Part shown: positions 28,483 through 35,888 of the stretch, piece after piece | Layout: each line of letters begins with the position of its first letter | Position numbering within the stretch: position 1 is the first letter of the stretch | Source of the DNA: Nitrospira sp. | GTDB taxonomy: Bacteria; Nitrospirota; Nitrospiria; Nitrospirales; UBA8639 | Assembly (NCBI GenBank): GCA_028819435.1 | Contig: JAPPLK010000094.1 | Location: forward strand, 53,801-89,688 | DNA length: 35,888 nt | Reading direction: 5' to 3' | Made by a program: the position numbers and the translations under genes | The notes under the pieces: generated by a model | Databases searched by the model: none | What the model was told of the DNA's origin: nothing | Seen by the model: the letters and a program-made list of their open reading frames with translations, nothing else

Positions 28483-29001
28483 ATGAATCTGGCACTCATC
28501 GGCTACCGGGGCACGGGAAAAAGCACCGTCGCGGAACTCCTCGCGACGCGACTGGGGTGGAAGGCGGTTTCCACGGACGCACAAATCGTCGAAAAAGCGC
28601 AAATGAAAATTCCGGACATTGTGGCCCGCAACGGATGGGACCACTTCCGCAATCTCGAAACCGAGGTGTGCCTCGCGCTCAAAAACCAGGACCGCTTGGT
28701 CATCGATACCGGCGGGGGGCTGATCCTGCGACCGGAGAACGTGGAAGCGTTAAAGCCCAATAGCCTGATCTTCTGGCTGACCGCCACGGTCTCGACGATT
28801 ACCCTTCGGATTTCAGATGACACGCAACGCCCGGCACTCACCGCCGGGAAAACGTTTGTCGAGGAAATCCAGGAAGTCCTGACCGAACGAACGCCCAAAT
28901 ACCAAGCCGCAGCCGATCACACCATTGCAACCGACGACCTCTCACCGGAGGAAATCACTAATCAGATCCTGACCATTGCCCACAGCCACGGCATCGATTA
29001 A
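28483..29001 (+). CDS. aroK: Shikimate kinase
   Basis: Phosphorylates shikimate at O3 using ATP, the step after AroE. The 172-residue product has the family length. Landmarks: Walker A GYRGTGKST (about 7-15), the shikimate-binding DAQI near 33 (usual D-x-x-I/E-x form), FRNLETEV (about 57-64), the GGGLIL loop (about 80-85) and RPAL in the lid (about 115). ATG 28483 follows GTGAGGG and lies 5 bp after aroE. The final 33 codons and 33 bp beyond are repeated, diverged, at 34969-35100. Confidence 0.95.
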   Translation: MNLALIGYRGTGKSTVAELLATRLGWKAVSTDAQIVEKAQMKIPDIVARNGWDHFRNLETEVCLALKNQDRLVIDTGGGLILRPENVEALKPNSLIFWLTATVSTITLRISDDTQRPALTAGKTFVEEIQEVLTERTPKYQAAADHTIATDDLSPEEITNQILTIAHSHGID

Positions 29002-29034
29002 TCGCGCTAGCCGCATCGTGGGTCTTCTTGATAC
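28903..29034 (+). repeat. Left copy of the aroK 3'-end direct repeat
   Basis: A 132-bp segment covering the end of aroK plus the first bases after it. It matches 34969-35100 without gaps at roughly 80 percent by eye. Identical tracts include GAAATCA, ATCCTGACCATTGC and GGTCTTCTTGATAC. Together the two copies bracket the 6-kb accessory island. Confidence 0.88.
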
Positions 29035-29052: not shown

Positions 29053-30024
29053 TCAGAGCAATCGCAGGCCATGATGAAAAATTTCCTGTGTGAATTCTTC
29101 CCACTTTTCGGGATCGTTTATAATCTCGGAAAGATCAAATATCTGTTCGAGTCGAAATCCCAAGGCCTTCAAACGCTTTCCCATCTCTGCCGTACAAACT
29201 CCCACAATCAAATAATCCTTTGATGTGTTGGGTGTTTCTCCCGCACTCTTTTGAAACGCCCCAAGCCGTTCAAGTGCCCCGGCTGGGTCCGTTCCGGCCT
29301 TGATTTCAATCGTTGCGACAATCTGCCATTCCCCATTTCGCGCTTTCCTTTTGAACGCAATGTCCGGGTCGATACCGAAAATCATCCGCACCTCGTTTGA
29401 TAACATCCAATCCTTCGTCGTTTCCATCGCATCTGTTCCGGTGTAGGGGCGCAGATCAATCCGACTCTGCGTTTGGAGCCACGCAACCAATGCGTCCTGA
29501 ACCGCCTTTTCCCCCTCTCGTCCGATGATATTCCGAATCGAACCATCCGCCGTAATACCTATCGTTGCCAAAACATTCCGGTATCCGTTTTCCAATACCC
29601 AATCGTCTGCATCCATAATAATTGATGAGATAATCGAGTTGTACAATCGTGCGATCTTTTGACATTTTTCCGTTGTCGGACGGCGGTTTTTTGGCCATGA
29701 CCCGTCTTCCCAGGAAACCACACTTCCTGCAATTGCCTGAACCCGTTTCAGCGATAAAAGGGCTATCCCCCGATAGTGCAATGATACATCTGGGCTCTGC
29801 TGCAACATAATCGGATGGACAAAGACAAACTTCGGGTCTATCCCTGAAGAAATGACGTGCTGCCAAGCCTCTTGCACGATTGCCAGTTCCACAAGGTCTC
29901 GTTCGTAATCTGACGCGCTCAAGGCAAACGAGTCGATTTTCTTCCTCGCCTTTAGTTCAGCACGTTCCCGTATTCGGCGAGAAATGATAGTGGCACGGGT
30001 TTTTGACTCTTGCAGTTTATCCAT
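29053..30024 (-). CDS. XcyI-family type II restriction endonuclease
   Basis: A 323-residue protein resembling the XcyI family (enzymes recognising CCCGGG). Landmarks are an N-terminal helical stretch (MDKLQESKTRATIISRRIRE), the middle SIIMDADDWVLENGYRNVLA, and a PD-(D/E)xK core reading GIDPDIAFKRKARNGEW followed by ATIEIKAGTDPAGALERLG (Asp, then E-x-K). ATG 30024 overlaps the methylase stop by 8 bp; the longer open frame upstream runs inside the methylase gene and was rejected. The methylase-then-endonuclease order lets protection come first. Specificity for CCCGGG is inferred from family resemblance. Confidence 0.82.
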   Translation of the reverse strand: MDKLQESKTRATIISRRIRERAELKARKKIDSFALSASDYERDLVELAIVQEAWQHVISSGIDPKFVFVHPIMLQQSPDVSLHYRGIALLSLKRVQAIAGSVVSWEDGSWPKNRRPTTEKCQKIARLYNSIISSIIMDADDWVLENGYRNVLATIGITADGSIRNIIGREGEKAVQDALVAWLQTQSRIDLRPYTGTDAMETTKDWMLSNEVRMIFGIDPDIAFKRKARNGEWQIVATIEIKAGTDPAGALERLGAFQKSAGETPNTSKDYLIVGVCTAEMGKRLKALGFRLEQIFDLSEIINDPEKWEEFTQEIFHHGLRLL

Positions 30025-31492
30025 CAGGCTTTTTCCAATGATAGACGCATTTGCGTATTTCGTGCCTCCCGAACCGCCCCATCTGCTGACTGGAATTGCC
30101 TTTTCCGCGCTCAAGCATCCGAATGGTCTGACACCGGAAACCGGATTGCTCTGCAAAATCTGATAAAATCAGGTCAACCGGAACCTCCTCCCCATGATAC
30201 CGAACGTTGTCATTCACCATGAAGACGCTTCCACCCGGTCTGACCACCCGACCCAACTCCCTTATGACAACAGCCATCTCCGTAAAATAATTTTTCACAA
30301 GTCGGATCACGTTGCGATTGCTCAATTCGTGGGCTTGTTCAGTCAGATTGCCGAGAATTTCTTGAAGGGCGGGCTGCGCATCAGCCATCCGAAATGCTTC
30401 CTTTGCGAGTGAGTCCTCACCGTAGTCTTTCTCGATAGACGTGCGTTTTGAGCCGTTCTCTACGGTTGCCGACAACAACGACTGCCGTAACGCTTTCAAC
30501 TGTTCGTGTCCGTAGCCAAGATATTCCAACTCCAACGCATACGTCCGCGTGTAGTCATATCGGTTGGCATAGGGCGGCGACGTGACAACGGCGTCTATCG
30601 AGTTTGCCCGTAGCTTTTTGAGTTCGTTGAGACTCGATCCATTAACAAGAGTAGGGATATGACCGGCATATGTCCTCTCCAGTATGGGGACGTCCGCAAT
30701 GATTTCGGACAGACGCTTTCCCAAGGCTTCCCTAACGGTCGGAAGCGATCCTTTATCCAACTTGGGGCTCACGACCCGTCCGGATTGAGGGTCCCATCGA
30801 AGAAACTGGCCGTCTTTCCGCGTATAACTCACGTCCTCCAAAATACTGACACAAGCAAGCGTCAAGACAGTTGCAATTGCCGGATCGTCAATTTTTGAGA
30901 TGAACATCTGCGCCCGCATCAATGCAGATTCGGTCTTCCGGGGATACGCGCCTTGCGTAATCGGCATCTGCTCCATGCGGTTCCCTGTACCGCGAACACT
31001 ATACCGGACAAGAGCTTTCGCTTGTTTTTCCAGGCAACCCTTATCTATTCCATTCGACGCATACGCCACCGCCATGGCAGCCAGATTCCCGACTGGCATA
31101 ATTTCAATCCCTGTCCCAACGTGTCCGAGGCCAGCAGCAGCCACAACCGTCGTCCCTACCCCAGAAAATGGATCGAGAACATGAGTTTCTTGTTGTTGGG
31201 GGAGAAGCGTCCGAACAAGGGACCTGGAAAAACCTTCCTTGTATTTGAACCACCGGAATCCTGGTTCATGCTTATTTCCTTGATAGGACACCAGTTTCCG
31301 GTTGAGACCGACATCTACCAGCATCCGATCACAGAATCGACGAAACAAGTCGTTCCGCTCCTGGGTCTTTTTTCCATTAGAGGACAAGACGACAGGTAGC
31401 GGAAAAGCCCTCTGCAAAGAGCCATCTAACCTGACGTCTCTCCCTATCTGATCAAAGCCAAACTCCTGTTGCTGTAGAAGCCCGTCCTTCAT
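30017..31492 (-). CDS. DNA methyltransferase of the XcyI-like R-M pair (SPPY type)
   Basis: A 491-residue SAM-dependent methylase. The SAM-binding motif I is HVLDPFSGVGTTVVAAAGLG (about residues 105-124) and the catalytic motif IV is VVTSPPYANRYDYTRTYALE (about 305-325). SPPY is typical of N4-cytosine (and some N6-adenine) methylases, as in the SmaI/XcyI group. Motif I precedes motif IV. ATG 31492 was chosen over a TTG four codons upstream because GGGGAAGGG immediately precedes it. It is the first gene of the pair and overlaps the endonuclease by 8 bp. Confidence 0.88.
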   Translation of the reverse strand: MKDGLLQQQEFGFDQIGRDVRLDGSLQRAFPLPVVLSSNGKKTQERNDLFRRFCDRMLVDVGLNRKLVSYQGNKHEPGFRWFKYKEGFSRSLVRTLLPQQQETHVLDPFSGVGTTVVAAAGLGHVGTGIEIMPVGNLAAMAVAYASNGIDKGCLEKQAKALVRYSVRGTGNRMEQMPITQGAYPRKTESALMRAQMFISKIDDPAIATVLTLACVSILEDVSYTRKDGQFLRWDPQSGRVVSPKLDKGSLPTVREALGKRLSEIIADVPILERTYAGHIPTLVNGSSLNELKKLRANSIDAVVTSPPYANRYDYTRTYALELEYLGYGHEQLKALRQSLLSATVENGSKRTSIEKDYGEDSLAKEAFRMADAQPALQEILGNLTEQAHELSNRNVIRLVKNYFTEMAVVIRELGRVVRPGGSVFMVNDNVRYHGEEVPVDLILSDFAEQSGFRCQTIRMLERGKGNSSQQMGRFGRHEIRKCVYHWKKPDG

Positions 31493-31579
31493 GCCCTTCC
31501 CCAAATTCCTGTCTGCTGTACTACACTATCAGTTCCTAATAAGGAAAACGTTTCCCCTTCATCTTTCTAACACAAACTG

Positions 31580-32149
31580 TCAATACGACCTACTTCTTCT
31601 GTTCTTGGCCCATGCCTTCGCATTTGTAATGCGAATTCTGTATTTCAATAAATCTTGACTCACACCATAGTATTCGGCCGCATCTCGTAGACTAGAGAAC
31701 CCTTCGATCGCATAAAGCGCTGCTACATTCGGAACCAATAATGTAAACCCAAGTTCATTTGCCTCTTGTTCACGGATTGGATCGAAGTTCCTACAACTGC
31801 CATTCAACAATGGAGGTCTAGGCGGATGATATAAGATAATGTGAGCTAATTCGTGACTAATGTTTGAGTGTTGACGGTTTGGATGTTGGGAATCATTGTG
31901 GATGATTTCATTGTATATGCCATCCACCAGTGTAAAGGCAGAGAATGTGGAATTTCCTTCCTCTTGGAAATGCCGTTTTATATCGCGGGGAATTGTTGGA
32001 TGTTCGGAGAGAGCATGAATCGGTACAGCAAGGTGTTCAGCCAAACGAAAGGGGTTGAGAGGCTCTTGCTCCTCAAGGCCAAGTTCTTCTCGGAATTCTA
32101 GAGCATATTCCTCGGCTTCTTTGCGAAAACCACGTCTAAGTCTTACCAC
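31580..32149 (-). CDS. ImmA/IrrE-type zinc metallopeptidase
   Basis: A 189-residue soluble protein with the HExxH zinc motif in NISHELAHIILYH (about residues 98-110) and a downstream Glu in REQEANELGFTLLVP, the typical ImmA/IrrE arrangement (H-E-x-x-H...E-x-E-A). Family members cleave or inactivate a partner XRE repressor on a stress or phage signal. It starts at GTG 32149 with GAGGAAAGG upstream and overlaps the XRE gene by 14 bp, so the two are coupled. It most plausibly relieves repression of the divergent ubiquitin-like operon. Confidence 0.88.
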   Translation of the reverse strand: MVRLRRGFRKEAEEYALEFREELGLEEQEPLNPFRLAEHLAVPIHALSEHPTIPRDIKRHFQEEGNSTFSAFTLVDGIYNEIIHNDSQHPNRQHSNISHELAHIILYHPPRPPLLNGSCRNFDPIREQEANELGFTLLVPNVAALYAIEGFSSLRDAAEYYGVSQDLLKYRIRITNAKAWAKNRRSRSY

Positions 32150-32501
32150 GACCTTTCCTCATATGTTTGTAAGCCGACTTGAGCATCGTGTCCAAGGCTT
32201 TGGCGCTTTCTTCGCTCAGATTGCGGTCAGCACGAAGAAGTGCTGTGATTTCCGCCAGCGGTTCAGCTTTAGGCCGCCCTTCTTCAGCAGGCCTATAGAA
32301 CTTCTTGACATCAACACCCGACCAACTCGCCAGAGCTGCCAGACCATCTATGTCTGGTCGTTTCCCTTGTCGCATCCGTGTGAGTGTGGATGCTGCGACC
32401 CCGGATTTCTTCGCTACCTGCTTCCAAGTCAGATTTTTGGCCTCCCTGGTGCCATCCAACGCTGCGTAGAAGCCTTCCGTATCAAATCGTTGATTTGACA
32501 T
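32136..32501 (-). CDS. XRE-family repressor paired with the ImmA-type protease
   Basis: A 121-residue regulator with an XRE helix-turn-helix at about 12-72 (LTWKQVAKKSGVAASTLTRM, RQGKRPDIDGLAALASWSGV). A C-terminal helical part (EITALLRADRNLSEESAKAL) probably dimerises or is the protease target. It is divergent from the ubiquitin-like operon, with 104 bp between the start codons. It is likely to bind the GCAAT/ATTGC sites in that gap. It overlaps the metalloprotease gene downstream by 14 bp. Confidence 0.88.
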   Translation of the reverse strand: MSNQRFDTEGFYAALDGTREAKNLTWKQVAKKSGVAASTLTRMRQGKRPDIDGLAALASWSGVDVKKFYRPAEEGRPKAEPLAEITALLRADRNLSEESAKALDTMLKSAYKHMRKGRGKT

Positions 32502-32605: not shown

Positions 32606-33262
32606 ATGTCAAAGCAAAATCCCGATGGCTCTTTCGAACTTGAGGTTAACGGGACCGTCGTCACTTTCAAAGATCCAGTGCCGACGGCCAGTCAAATCCT
32701 ACGAGAAGGCGGGTTCACCCCAACGGATGAGCACATTTTAATCCGACTGCAGAAAGGATCGTCAAATGCGTTGGGTTTGAATGAGCCAATAGACCTCCGC
32801 AATGGAGAATCTGCGAAGTTCCGGGCATTCAGGAGTGATCGAGTTTTCCGGTTGACCCTAGACGGCGGTGGTTTCGAGTGGGGTGAAGGCACCATAAGCG
32901 AGTCGGAACTTCGCAAATTGGCTGCGGTCGGCGATGACAAAGTTCTAGTCCTGGAACGTCGAGACGAACCAGATCGCGAACTTAATTACAACGACCAAGT
33001 CGCATTGATGGATGCTGGTACGGAACACATTCGAACCATCAAAAAGCTGATCGTCGTTGTTATAGATGGAGTCGAAAAACAGATTGATCGTGGCACCTAT
33101 AAAACCGAGCAATTGCTTGCCATTCTCGGCGTCGAGACTGGTTATCTACTCAACGTGCTGAGTGACGATGGACAACTCAAAACGTTGAATTCCGGCGACC
33201 ACGTGTCTGTCAGGGAGGGCATGAAATTCTTTAGCCAAGTGCCTTGTGGAGGATCTGCATGA
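32606..33262 (+). CDS. Multi-ubiquitin-like protein, three beta-grasp units, Gly-Gly near the C-terminus
   Basis: A 218-residue protein of three successive ubiquitin-like (beta-grasp) units. Unit 1 is about 8-66 (FELEVNGTVVTFKDPVPTAS...). Unit 2 is about 68-135 (VFRLTLDGGGFEWGEGTISE...). Unit 3 is about 137-214 (KKLIVVVIDGVEKQIDRGTY...). It matches the architecture of Multi_ubiq proteins (PF14452 as I recall it), which occur with E1, E2 and JAB genes. The last residues are VPCGG-SA: a Gly-Gly that would be exposed by removing two residues, as the neighbouring JAB peptidase could do. ATG 32606 has a strong AGGAGGG site. It is coupled to the E2-like gene by ATGA. Confidence 0.87.
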   Translation: MSKQNPDGSFELEVNGTVVTFKDPVPTASQILREGGFTPTDEHILIRLQKGSSNALGLNEPIDLRNGESAKFRAFRSDRVFRLTLDGGGFEWGEGTISESELRKLAAVGDDKVLVLERRDEPDRELNYNDQVALMDAGTEHIRTIKKLIVVVIDGVEKQIDRGTYKTEQLLAILGVETGYLLNVLSDDGQLKTLNSGDHVSVREGMKFFSQVPCGGSA

Positions 33263-33591
33263 CCAACACGGACGACGAATATAAAAAGATCAAGAGTCTC
33301 CATGAATCGGCCAAACTGACTCGGGAGGGCGGCAATCCAATCGTCCTCCTGCCGCAAGCGAGGTTTCAGTCTGCTGGGCGCGAGATCCAGATGGATTTGC
33401 TCCTCTACCCTGCCGCCCATGGCGGCTATCCAACCAGGCTCTTTTTTGAGCGTCAGATTGAAGGGCGGGGAAATAACTGGAAACAATATTGTGTTGTTGG
33501 TAGACACTGGTGGGCCTGTTCTTGGGGCGGCATTGAAGCCGACATGAGCTGGCCAGGCATGCTATGTGCGCATCTAAGAGCTGTCGAATGA
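33259..33591 (+). CDS. E2-like (ubiquitin-conjugating fold) protein
   Basis: A 110-residue protein. Position and pattern match the prokaryotic E2 family found in multi-ubiquitin operons (Prok-E2_E-like). A beta-meander (REIQMDLLLYPAAHGGYPTR, LFFERQI) is followed by WKQYCVVGRHWWACSWGGI and a helix SWPGMLCAHLRAVE. Cysteines at 78, 87 and 103 are the only thiols. C78 or C87 is the most likely site for the thioester with the ubiquitin-like protein, but which one is not decidable here. It overlaps both neighbours by ATGA. It is small for an E2, so the assignment rests partly on context. Confidence 0.75.
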   Translation: MTNTDDEYKKIKSLHESAKLTREGGNPIVLLPQARFQSAGREIQMDLLLYPAAHGGYPTRLFFERQIEGRGNNWKQYCVVGRHWWACSWGGIEADMSWPGMLCAHLRAVE

Positions 33592-34091
33592 AGACGCGAT
33601 TCAAAATTACCCGTGCGCTTCTCGCATCAATTCGACGCGACCTCGACCGCCCACACCCATTCGCATACGAACGCGTGGGCTTTATCTCGGCAGGGCTTGC
33701 TACCGCAGGTGACAATCTTCTGATCCTGGCACGCAACTATCGGCCTCTGATGGATCATGAGTATCTGCCGAATATTTCGGTTGGCGCGATGATGGGACCT
33801 GATGCAATCCGAAGCGCTCTGCAGTGGGCACTGGAAACTGGCGGAGCAATGTTCCACGTGCATACGCATGGCGGCTTCGGTGTGCCCAGTTTTAGTACGA
33901 TAGACATTTGCGAAAACGCCAAGTTTGTACTCGATTTCTTCAAAGTCGCGTCATATGCGGCTCATGGTGCAATCGTGCTCAGCAACGATGCCGTGAGCGG
34001 ACAAGTATGGTGCAACAGAAATGAGCCCTACGAATTCATTCAGGATTTTGTCGAGGTTGGTGTCCCGATTCGGAAGTGGAGGGGAACATGA
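33588..34091 (+). CDS. JAB/JAMM metalloprotease (deubiquitinase-like)
   Basis: A 167-residue Mov34/JAB-domain peptidase. JAMM residues are visible: Glu28 (FAYERVGFISAG), His92-x-His94 in FHVHTHGGFG, then Ser103 and Asp106 in VPSFSTID. This gives H-x-H-x8-S-x2-D, one residue longer than the textbook x7 spacing. The NISVGAMMGPDAIRSALQWA stretch is the following helix. In such operons the enzyme is expected to trim the ubiquitin-like precursor after Gly-Gly and to remove it from targets. It overlaps both neighbours by ATGA. Confidence 0.88.
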   Translation: MKTRFKITRALLASIRRDLDRPHPFAYERVGFISAGLATAGDNLLILARNYRPLMDHEYLPNISVGAMMGPDAIRSALQWALETGGAMFHVHTHGGFGVPSFSTIDICENAKFVLDFFKVASYAAHGAIVLSNDAVSGQVWCNRNEPYEFIQDFVEVGVPIRKWRGT

Positions 34092-35038
34092 GTCGCTTTG
34101 TTCGCCAGAGTTTCTTGGGAGTCAACAGCGAGGCTGTTCTGGACGCTACCACTGTAGGCCTTGTAGGCCTCGGCGGTGGTGGTTCACATATCGTTCAGCA
34201 ATTCGCGCACATCGGCATTGGCAGATATGTCCTTGCGGATCACGACCGAATCGATTTCACGAATACGACACGTCTCGTTGGCGGAACACTGAAAGACATC
34301 AAAAACAAGATGTGGAAAACTGAGATTGCGGCGCGACTGATCCGGAGTTTGCAACCGAATGCAGCTATCATTCAGATCCGCGATAAATGGCAGACCGCAA
34401 CGGATCAACTCAAGGGCTGCGATCTAATCCTAGGAGCGGTAGACTCTTTCGTGGAACGTGACCAGCTAGAGCGTTTCGCCCGAAGGCATCTCATCCCGTA
34501 CATCGACATTGGAATGGATGTGCATGATCTAAGGGAGAACGGTTTTCTCATCTCCGGCCAAGTGATCTTGTCAACTCCCGGCAACCCATGTTTGTGGTGT
34601 TGTGGACTTATTACTGATAAACAGCTCAAGCAAGAGGCTACCCAATATGGATTGGCCGGTGGTCGCCCTCAGGTTATCTGGCCGAACGGTATCCTGGCAT
34701 CGACAGCCGTGGGACTCGCGATACAAGTGATTACCCCGTGGTTCAAGAATCCTCCAGAATTTGCGTATGTTGAGTATGATGGGAACAAAGGAATAGTCTC
34801 CACTAGTGCCCGGATTAAAATATTAAAAAACCAAACATGCAAACACCATCCTGCAGACGAGGTTGGTGATCCATTTTTCAATATAAGTGTCCACCGGCAG
34901 CGACTTGCTGAGCAAAGAGCTAAAAGCCATCGTTGGTGGAAAATCATTCTTCGTAGGTTATTGGGCAGCAAGCCACGGCCGATCACGCTATTGCAACCGA
35001 CGACCACTCACCGAAGGAAATCATCTCTCAAATCCTGA
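34088..35038 (+). CDS. ThiF/E1-like activating enzyme
   Basis: A 316-residue E1-type adenylating enzyme. Landmarks: nucleotide loop GLVGLGGGGSHIV (24-36), DHDRIDFTNTTR (51-62) with the ribose-binding Asp and Arg finger, catalytic Lys77 in KNKMWKTEIAARL, GAVDS with the Mg-binding Asp119, and a CxxCC at 168-172 (PCLWCCG) that may hold zinc or the catalytic Cys. A later TCKHHP near 262 may complete a zinc site. The enzyme would adenylate the exposed Gly-Gly end. The last 20 or so residues (PRPITLLQPTTTHRRKSSLK) are encoded out of frame within the duplicated aroK end, so the original C-terminus was probably altered. Confidence 0.9.
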   Translation: MSRFVRQSFLGVNSEAVLDATTVGLVGLGGGGSHIVQQFAHIGIGRYVLADHDRIDFTNTTRLVGGTLKDIKNKMWKTEIAARLIRSLQPNAAIIQIRDKWQTATDQLKGCDLILGAVDSFVERDQLERFARRHLIPYIDIGMDVHDLRENGFLISGQVILSTPGNPCLWCCGLITDKQLKQEATQYGLAGGRPQVIWPNGILASTAVGLAIQVITPWFKNPPEFAYVEYDGNKGIVSTSARIKILKNQTCKHHPADEVGDPFFNISVHRQRLAEQRAKSHRWWKIILRRLLGSKPRPITLLQPTTTHRRKSSLKS

Positions 35039-35100
35039 CCATTGCTCGCAACCACGGTCTCAAGCAACCGGGCTAGCCTCATCGCAGGTCTTCTTGATAC
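34969..35100 (+). repeat. Right copy of the aroK 3'-end direct repeat
   Basis: A diverged 132-bp match to 28903-29034. In the aroK frame it reads QATADHAIATDDHSPKEIIS, QILTIARNHGLKQPG, stop, closely parallel to the AroK C-terminus. It starts inside the E1 gene and ends 62 bp after its stop. Confidence 0.88.
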
Positions 35101-35240: not shown

Positions 35241-35771
35241 ATGACGTTTGAGCAGAAGATGCAGCTTTGGGCAGTAATTGGAACTTGGGTTGCCGGAATT
35301 GCGACGATTTTTGTTGCCGTTGTGGCATTGCTTCTTGCCCGCCGCTCAGAGAAAGTGCGATTGAAGGCGAATGTTGGACTTCGGCTCGCGATCACTCCTG
35401 GTATCTCCAAGGAAGAATGTTTAAAATTCACAGTGACAAATGTCGGAGAACGTCAAGTGACCATCGACAGCATAGGCTGGCGCATCGGCAAACGTAAAAA
35501 CAAACGATTCGCCTTACAAATCGTATCAACACTATCACCGCATAACTATCCAAGAAAAATCGAGCACGGGGAAACAGCCCAATTTTTGGTTTATTTTAGC
35601 GAGTCGCCAAATTGGATGAGAGATTTTGTTGCGGACTTCGTGCAAGATGTTTCGGACAAATCAATCAATACACTTCGAGCACAGGTACACACATCTGTGG
35701 ACCATACTGTTGATATCGTCCCAGAACAAAGCTTGCTAGAAAAGCTTAAAAGTGTTGGTGACGGAAATTGA
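35241..35771 (+). CDS. Single-pass membrane protein of unknown function (176 aa)
   Basis: Not recognised. One N-terminal hydrophobic segment (LWAVIGTWVAGIATIFVAVVALLLA, about residues 9-32, shown as landmark) is followed by a positively charged stop-transfer (RRSEKVRLKA). A beta-rich soluble domain then follows (LKFTVTNVGERQVTIDSIGWRI...). The TNVGERQVTI pattern is typical of small immunoglobulin-like accessory membrane proteins common in defence islands. ATG 35241 follows AAAGGGTT. Composition is lower in GC than the core genes, in line with acquired DNA. Confidence 0.72.
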   Translation: MTFEQKMQLWAVIGTWVAGIATIFVAVVALLLARRSEKVRLKANVGLRLAITPGISKEECLKFTVTNVGERQVTIDSIGWRIGKRKNKRFALQIVSTLSPHNYPRKIEHGETAQFLVYFSESPNWMRDFVADFVQDVSDKSINTLRAQVHTSVDHTVDIVPEQSLLEKLKSVGDGN

Positions 35772-35834: not shown

Positions 35835-35888
35835 ATGAGTATTGAAAAGAATTTCGATGTTTCTTTGATTGCCGGAATGGCACTTAAG
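35835..35888 (+). CDS. Start of a further gene, cut by the window edge
   Basis: The frame MSIEKNFDVSLIAGMALK runs off the window end after a GCGAGGG site. An opening of this kind (KNFDVxxIAxxALxE) occurs, from memory, at the start of large DUF1156-like or adenine-methylase-type proteins of accessory islands. Eighteen residues are too few to decide. Confidence 0.4.
   Translation, partial: MSIEKNFDVSLIAGMALK

Follow-up and report, generated by a model that had tools for sequence, protein, structure and literature searches.

A Nitrospira operon that probably represents a distinct and widespread sister clade of Bub-type ubiquitin-like modification modules

The stretch of Nitrospira sp. DNA analysed here, which we call the window (35,888 nucleotides in all; GenBank assembly GCA_028819435.1, contig JAPPLK010000094.1, positions 53,801 to 89,688 of the forward strand), carries at 32606-35038 an operon for a ubiquitin-like protein (Ubl), an E2-fold protein, a JAB-type peptidase and an E1-like adenylating enzyme. 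We consider it rather probable that this operon belongs to a distinct and widespread sister clade of Bub-type ubiquitin-like modification modules and operates through the reaction cycle proposed below. The operon is intact, and its four-gene type was recovered from numerous phyla of bacteria. It resembles a scaled-down ubiquitin system that would process, activate and attach a Ubl, seemingly without the cysteine chemistry usual in ubiquitin enzymes, and the best match in the PDB of each of its four proteins is a Bub protein (BubA, BubB, BubCD and BubCD, respectively). The genes are as follows:

32606-33262, plus strand: Ubl gene, 218 amino acids, three beta-grasp (Multi_ubiq) domains, BubA-like
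33259-33591, plus strand: E2-fold gene, 110 amino acids, BubB-like, no conserved cysteine
33588-34091, plus strand: JAB/JAMM peptidase gene, 167 amino acids, BubC-like
34088-35038, plus strand: E1 (ThiF-fold) gene, 316 amino acids, BubD-like, lacking a Cys domain

All four open reading frames are intact and lie at the coordinates given in the preliminary description of this DNA, which had been made from the letters alone. An ATGA overlap occurs at each of the three junctions (33259-33262, 33588-33591 and 34088-34091), and GGAGG, a good Shine-Dalgarno sequence, stands immediately 5' of the Ubl ATG. The earlier view of a translationally coupled Ubl-E2-JAB-E1 operon is borne out. Scanning of the GTDB species genomes with an E1 alignment recovered at least 141 loci with relatives of the window E1, 80 of which were kept; E1 relatives come from Proteobacteria, Acidobacteriota, Verrucomicrobiota, Bacteroidota, Planctomycetota, Melainabacteria and other lineages. 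The same four genes were found by tblastn on alphaproteobacterial plasmids; the E1s of Methylovirgula and Bradyrhizobium are 60-61% identical to that of the window, and the plasmid E2s are 26-52% identical. Profile searches detected all four genes in 83 of the 89 clade loci. The order Ubl-E2-JAB-E1 holds in every one of these 83, with an overlap of exactly four nucleotides between E2 and JAB in 78, between Ubl and E2 in 63 and between JAB and E1 in 45. Such a uniform order, mostly with four-nucleotide overlaps, excludes a chance arrangement.

JAB and E1 are fused in four of the 83 complete loci and in a few further loci without a detected Ubl, the fused forms within the clade being confined to Bacteroidota and some members of Melainabacteria. 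In the E1 tree the clade stands apart from the fused Bub E1s, the support being moderate (Shimodaira-Hasegawa-like approximate likelihood ratio test, SH-aLRT, 93), and its own fused members nest inside it. Since separate JAB and E1 genes are found across the relatives and the fused ones are nested in the clade, the split seen in the window is not the result of a frameshift. None of the 89 clade loci contains DUF6527. The scan with E1 found no relative in viral contigs, and the Ubl had no match among phage records.

Conservation of residues was computed on 78 clade sequences for the E2 and the JAB, and on 83 for the Ubl tail and for E1 Tyr187. The sites on which the functional argument turns are:

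33248-33259, plus strand: Ubl C-terminal tail Gly215-Gly216-Ser217-Ala218, with Gly215 the predicted mature C-terminus
33520-33522, plus strand: E2 Ser88, invariant in the 78 sequences, a candidate acyl acceptor; the preceding codon, 33517-33519, is Cys87
33855-33905, plus strand: JAMM motif HVHTHGGFGVPSFSTID, with His90, His92, His94, Ser103 and Asp106
34646-34648, plus strand: E1 Tyr187, present in 82 of 83 sequences and aligned by hhalign with Bub Tyr370

The window Ubl matches the Pfam family Multi_ubiq in three stretches (E 7.6e-21), and the clade Ubl profile matches Citrobacter BubA (PDB 9d59) at 7.9e-43 for the whole sequence, in agreement with the three-unit ubiquitin-like protein of 218 residues described earlier. 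Several relatives (L104, L111, L121, L124, L130 and L131) have a Ubl of about 90 amino acids with one beta-grasp domain, and therefore three domains are not obligatory. Glycine occupies position -4 in 82 of 83 Ubls, and the conserved tail is G-x-S-S: the residue after the glycine is variable (33 of the 83 have Gly), and the final two are nearly always Ser-Ser. Cleavage of the window Ubl should, by analogy, fall after Gly215 and leave this single glycine at the end, because the Citrobacter BubA construct in the PDB stops at the matching Gly229, the glycine in the DVNNG that precedes the fused E2 in the homologue at L175. A Gly-Gly adduct, which had been expected on modified targets, is not to be assumed with such a tail; if the cut falls after Gly215, the trypsin remnant on a target would be FFSQVPCG. 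In some Bub operons the Ubl and E2 form one chain (L175, 3325-6121, on a Citrobacter plasmid; L026, 7231-8346, in a congener), and hence the JAB there must cut within a polyprotein.

The JAB and E2 proteins of the clade are largely invisible to family models, with very few JABs and none of the E2s being recognized by Pfam. For the window JAB no Pfam family was found, and a search of it alone against the PDB sequences gave a chance match. Its AlphaFold2 model (predicted local distance difference test score, pLDDT, 93.1) has as its best PDB match the JAB part of BubCD (9ea4; Foldseek 1.3e-9, Z 19.1), followed by BRCC36, archaeal JAMM1 and Rpn11; as a negative control, hhalign of the JAB against the Bub E1 part gave no match. 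The earlier identification as a JAMM peptidase thus stands on the match of the model to the BubCD JAB and finds no counterpart in Pfam. The residues then singled out (Glu28, His92, His94, Ser103 and Asp106) were correctly numbered, and together with His90 they are conserved in 99-100% of the sequences.

The 110-residue protein likewise matches no Pfam family, and none of 63 clade E2 members matches Prok-E2_E at an E-value of 0.01; neither the single sequence nor a profile found a match among the PDB sequences, and only the fold search placed it. The AlphaFold2 model built from 57 sequences (pLDDT 94.6) has as its first PDB match BubB in complex with BubCD (9eae_C; Z 9.8 over 107 residues, root mean square deviation 3.4), after which come the ubiquitin E2 variant (UEV) domains of TSG101 (Z 7.5), and then Atg3 and ordinary E2s. 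Comparison of the clade E2 with the BubB/Prok-E2_E family by hhalign (E 9e-6) points to a distant relative. Thus, the E2 fold that had been assigned to this protein is supported, and its membership in Prok-E2_E is not. There is no conserved cysteine among the 78 sequences, which speaks against the classical cysteine-dependent E1-E2 cascade implied by the preliminary description. Tyr57, Arg60, Trp74, Trp84 and Ser88 are conserved in all of them and His105 in 97%, and hhalign aligns Ser88 with the serine in WSRH, a BubB-family motif.

The E1 contains one ThiF domain (Pfam, E 3e-25), with BubCD as its best PDB match (5.2e-20) and a value of 2.6e-41 in hhalign against ten Bub E1s. Asn59, Arg62, Lys77 and Asp119 are conserved in 99-100% of the sequences, and therefore the adenylation site is intact; the Gly-rich loop, whose glycines are 88-100% conserved, and the previously noted Lys77 and Asp119 are numbered as first reported. 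Cys168, Cys171, Cys251 and His253 (99% conserved) probably form a zinc site. The loop residue Tyr370 of Bub, with which Tyr187 aligns, does not vary among the ten Bub E1s and is residue 370 in the Citrobacter homologue at L175. The title of PDB entry 9eav reads BubCD(D104A/Y370F)-BubB-BubA(155-229), Asp104 being the JAMM aspartate in L175; the mutation of Tyr370 to Phe in this entry implies that the depositors held it to be important. Type II cyclic oligonucleotide-based antiphage signalling (CBASS) was discarded as a candidate, the PADLOC 'E1-E2' matches covering the E1 domain only.

In the cycle that we propose, the JAB zinc peptidase would first trim the three residues past Gly215 of the Ubl, and would later strip the tag off targets; E1 would then adenylate Gly215 through its ThiF-type active site. 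These two steps are suggested because the proteins belong to well-known families. The activated Ubl would next pass to the target via oxygen nucleophiles, most likely Tyr187 of E1 and Ser88 of E2 (with His105), or alternatively be delivered directly to the target, guided by the E2-like protein. CapH/CapP-like regulators would hold the operon off until stress. On sequence grounds a cysteine-free relay is likely, because a conserved cysteine is missing from the E2, no cysteine of the E1 is a candidate for catalysis and Tyr187 aligns with Bub Tyr370. The complete version of such tagging, from the Ubl adenylate to a Tyr187 oxyester on E1, a Ser88 oxyester on E2 and finally the target, encoded by four separate genes in a multi-phylum clade, is a tentative proposal that we hold possible but less likely than not; part of it may already be published for Bub.

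Several observations weigh against this picture. The proposal that Ser88 or Tyr187 takes part in catalysis comes from conservation and alignment, and Ser, Tyr and His may also be conserved for structural reasons. The UEV domains of TSG101, which are catalytically inactive, are likewise close to the E2 model. Cys111 of the E1 is 94% conserved, the only widely conserved cysteine beyond those of the zinc site, and a catalytic role for it is unlikely because it sits in the Rossmann core. Finally, the CapP-like peptidase beside the operon matches about 140 of the 242 positions of its profile, making DNA-damage sensing uncertain.

It is somewhat unlikely that the E2-like protein is a non-catalytic adaptor of the UEV/RWD type, with E1 handing the Ubl directly to a target that this protein presents. 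The lack of a conserved cysteine and the rank of the TSG101 domains just under BubB agree with such a role, as does the verdict of Iyer et al. 2006 (PMC1779556), who called the E2-like proteins of the type 6e operons inactive; however, the conservation of Ser88, His105, Tyr57 and Arg60 at 97-100% goes beyond the obvious needs of an adaptor. Less probable still is a role apart from protein conjugation, in which E1 would adenylate only and the Ubl would serve as a sulfur carrier, a partner in small-molecule synthesis or a self-assembling scaffold. Triple beta-grasp Ubls of bacteria reportedly form filaments (Gong et al. 2025), and the E1 falls within the ThiF superfamily, but throughout the clade it is found together with a JAMM peptidase and an E2 fold, and the title of Ye et al. 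2026 speaks of Bub as a protein-conjugating pathway. Very improbable is a classical cascade with a thioester on Cys87 of the window E2, which lies in WWACSW next to the invariant Ser88 and, judging by fold order, near the position of the cysteine in Atg3-type E2s. A cysteine is found there in 9 of the 78 relatives only, most others having Pro, Met or Trp, and apart from the zinc ligands and Cys111 the E1 offers no candidate for its own catalytic cysteine.

The operon adjoins a pair of regulatory genes and lies with them in a low-GC island behind aroK:

32136-32501, minus strand: divergent helix-turn-helix (HTH) repressor, CapH-like (HTH_3 1.6e-7; PADLOC capH 5.2e-5)
31580-32149, minus strand: ImmA/IrrE-type M78 metallopeptidase, CapP-like (Peptidase_M78 4.3e-13; PADLOC capP 1.3e-8)
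30017-31504, minus strand: type II DNA methyltransferase (PADLOC MTase_II 1.7e-123)
29053-30156, minus strand: XcyI-type restriction endonuclease (Pfam RE_XcyI 1.4e-12)
28903-29034, plus strand: aroK 3' end, left copy of a 132-bp direct repeat, 82% identical to 34969-35100
34969-35100, plus strand: aroK 3' end, right copy, contributing the last E1 codons

CapH/CapP-like genes adjoin many of the related operons as well. The arrangement, with a divergent HTH repressor and an M78 metallopeptidase beside an immune-type operon, is that of CapH+CapP systems, but the window CapP is short (189 amino acids), with the PADLOC alignment spanning only positions 4-143 of the 242 in the profile. A search between capH and the Ubl gene for a palindromic operator shared with the related locus L028 found only weak repeats, and scans for promoters and terminators stayed at chance level. 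CapP is reported to be activated by single-stranded DNA. Of note in this respect are L053 (4046-6290) and 17 other loci, where an exonuclease I-like gene (Exonuc_X-T_C) comes after capH and capP and runs divergently to the operon. At L056 (5212-6308) and eight other loci a pair consisting of an Xre/MbcA antitoxin and a RES-type NAD+ phosphorylase replaces capH/capP beside the operon. An AAA ATPase paired with an S8 (subtilisin-like) peptidase is seen at L051 (9074-12441), L052 and nine other loci; in L051 and L052 this pair lies immediately 3' of the operon. In the published survey, CapW or CapH+CapP lies beside 219 of 544 Bub operons (PMC13373217).

The type II restriction-modification pair lies beyond the CapH/CapP-like genes in the same island, whose GC content of 45-51% is below the 58% of the remaining window sequence. 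Two congeners (L166 and L167) have aroK directly followed by the gene that starts at window position 35838, and this uninterrupted site places the insert at about 29.04-35.81 kb. This site behind aroK resembles a hotspot for insertions; within the insert itself, no integrase was seen. A 176-amino-acid open reading frame (35241-35771), which carries a hydrophobic stretch at its N-terminus and matches no family, stands between the aroK repeat and a DNA methylase-like gene that is truncated where the contig ends. One congener retains the restriction-modification genes alone, and in another, G173 (L028, 4599-9009), the same island keeps these genes and capH, has a capP fragment and has lost most of Ubl, E2, JAB and E1. 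This relic, along with the last 22 or so E1 codons of the window, which run into the duplicated aroK 3' end from 34969, might suggest that the window copy is itself a decaying remnant without function. We regard that as highly doubtful, given that the four frames are open with all motif residues intact, the changes relative to the relatives are concentrated at third codon positions and the replaced E1 tail lies outside the conserved core.

Among known systems, the Bil (ISG15-like) antiphage system, named earlier as related, has the same four functions in one operon, and the Ubl matches a PDB chain named Ubl-BilA (8u38), but an identity with Bil is most improbable since the window E1 and E2 are built differently from those described for Bil (PMC11354881) and the examined plasmid homologues of 8u38 (43-53% identical) sit in Bub-type Ubl-E2-ThiF-DUF6527 operons. 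The Bil E1, BilD, has an inactive and an active adenylation domain and a Cys domain, BilB has its catalytic cysteine in CEHH, and BilA has two Ubl domains (PMC11354881). In contrast, the window E1 has one ThiF domain in 316 amino acids and no Cys domain, its E2 lacks a conserved cysteine and its Ubl has three domains; the closest characterized system is Bub.

A second comparison is with the type 6e polyUbl operon, predicted in 2006 by Iyer, Burroughs and Aravind. This type, to which Bub belongs, likewise combines a polyUbl of one to three domains, a Cys-less E2-like protein, a JAB and an E1. It usually has JAB and E1 fused and a Zn-finger protein of the pattern C-x3-C...H-x2-C, which fits DUF6527; the window has neither (PMC1779556).

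The closest likeness is to Bub (Citrobacter BubA-BubB-BubCD; PDB 9ea4, 9ea5, 9ea8, 9eae and 9eav), which shares with the window a triple beta-grasp Ubl, a JAMM peptidase, a Cys-less E2 fold with a conserved serine, a single-domain E1 in which a loop tyrosine replaces the cysteine, and CapH/CapP-type regulators. Bub was defined in 2025-2026 (Gong 2025, Ye 2026). Gene order, once taken as a mark of distinctness, is no such mark: Citrobacter BubCD consists of JAB and then E1, giving the same A-B-C-D order. The lettering of Bil (A for Ubl, B for E2, C for the deubiquitinase and D for E1; the letters being compared here, not the physical order of bil genes) also follows that of the window (PMC11354881). 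The window's own genome has a second, canonical Bub operon (L025, 563-3475; G000 contig C66) with Ubl, Prok-E2_E, a JAB-E1 fusion and DUF6527, and the phylum has another Multi_ubiq operon type (L034, 8262-10160; L029, L030 and L031) with a single Ubl, an E1 whose N-terminal DUF6791 replaces JAB, and DUF6527.

The general kind of system is therefore already known, and the clade is set apart within it by its unfused JAB and E1, the lack of DUF6527 and the G-x-S-S tail of its Ubl. In Citrobacter BubCD the JAB and E1 are fused, and annotated canonical Bub loci contain DUF6527; these are features of the Bub loci compared, and are not known to belong to a formal definition of Bub. Furthermore, the E2 and JAB of the clade fall outside the Pfam models and its E1s form a branch of their own. 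Thus, a broad branch of the Bub/polyUbl type encodes JAB and E1 as separable proteins and has no DUF6527, and general domain libraries such as Pfam miss two of its four genes. With its small, separate proteins and the sharp conservation of the Ubl tail, Ser88 and Tyr187, this branch allows a direct test of whether a ubiquitin-like cascade can dispense with cysteine.

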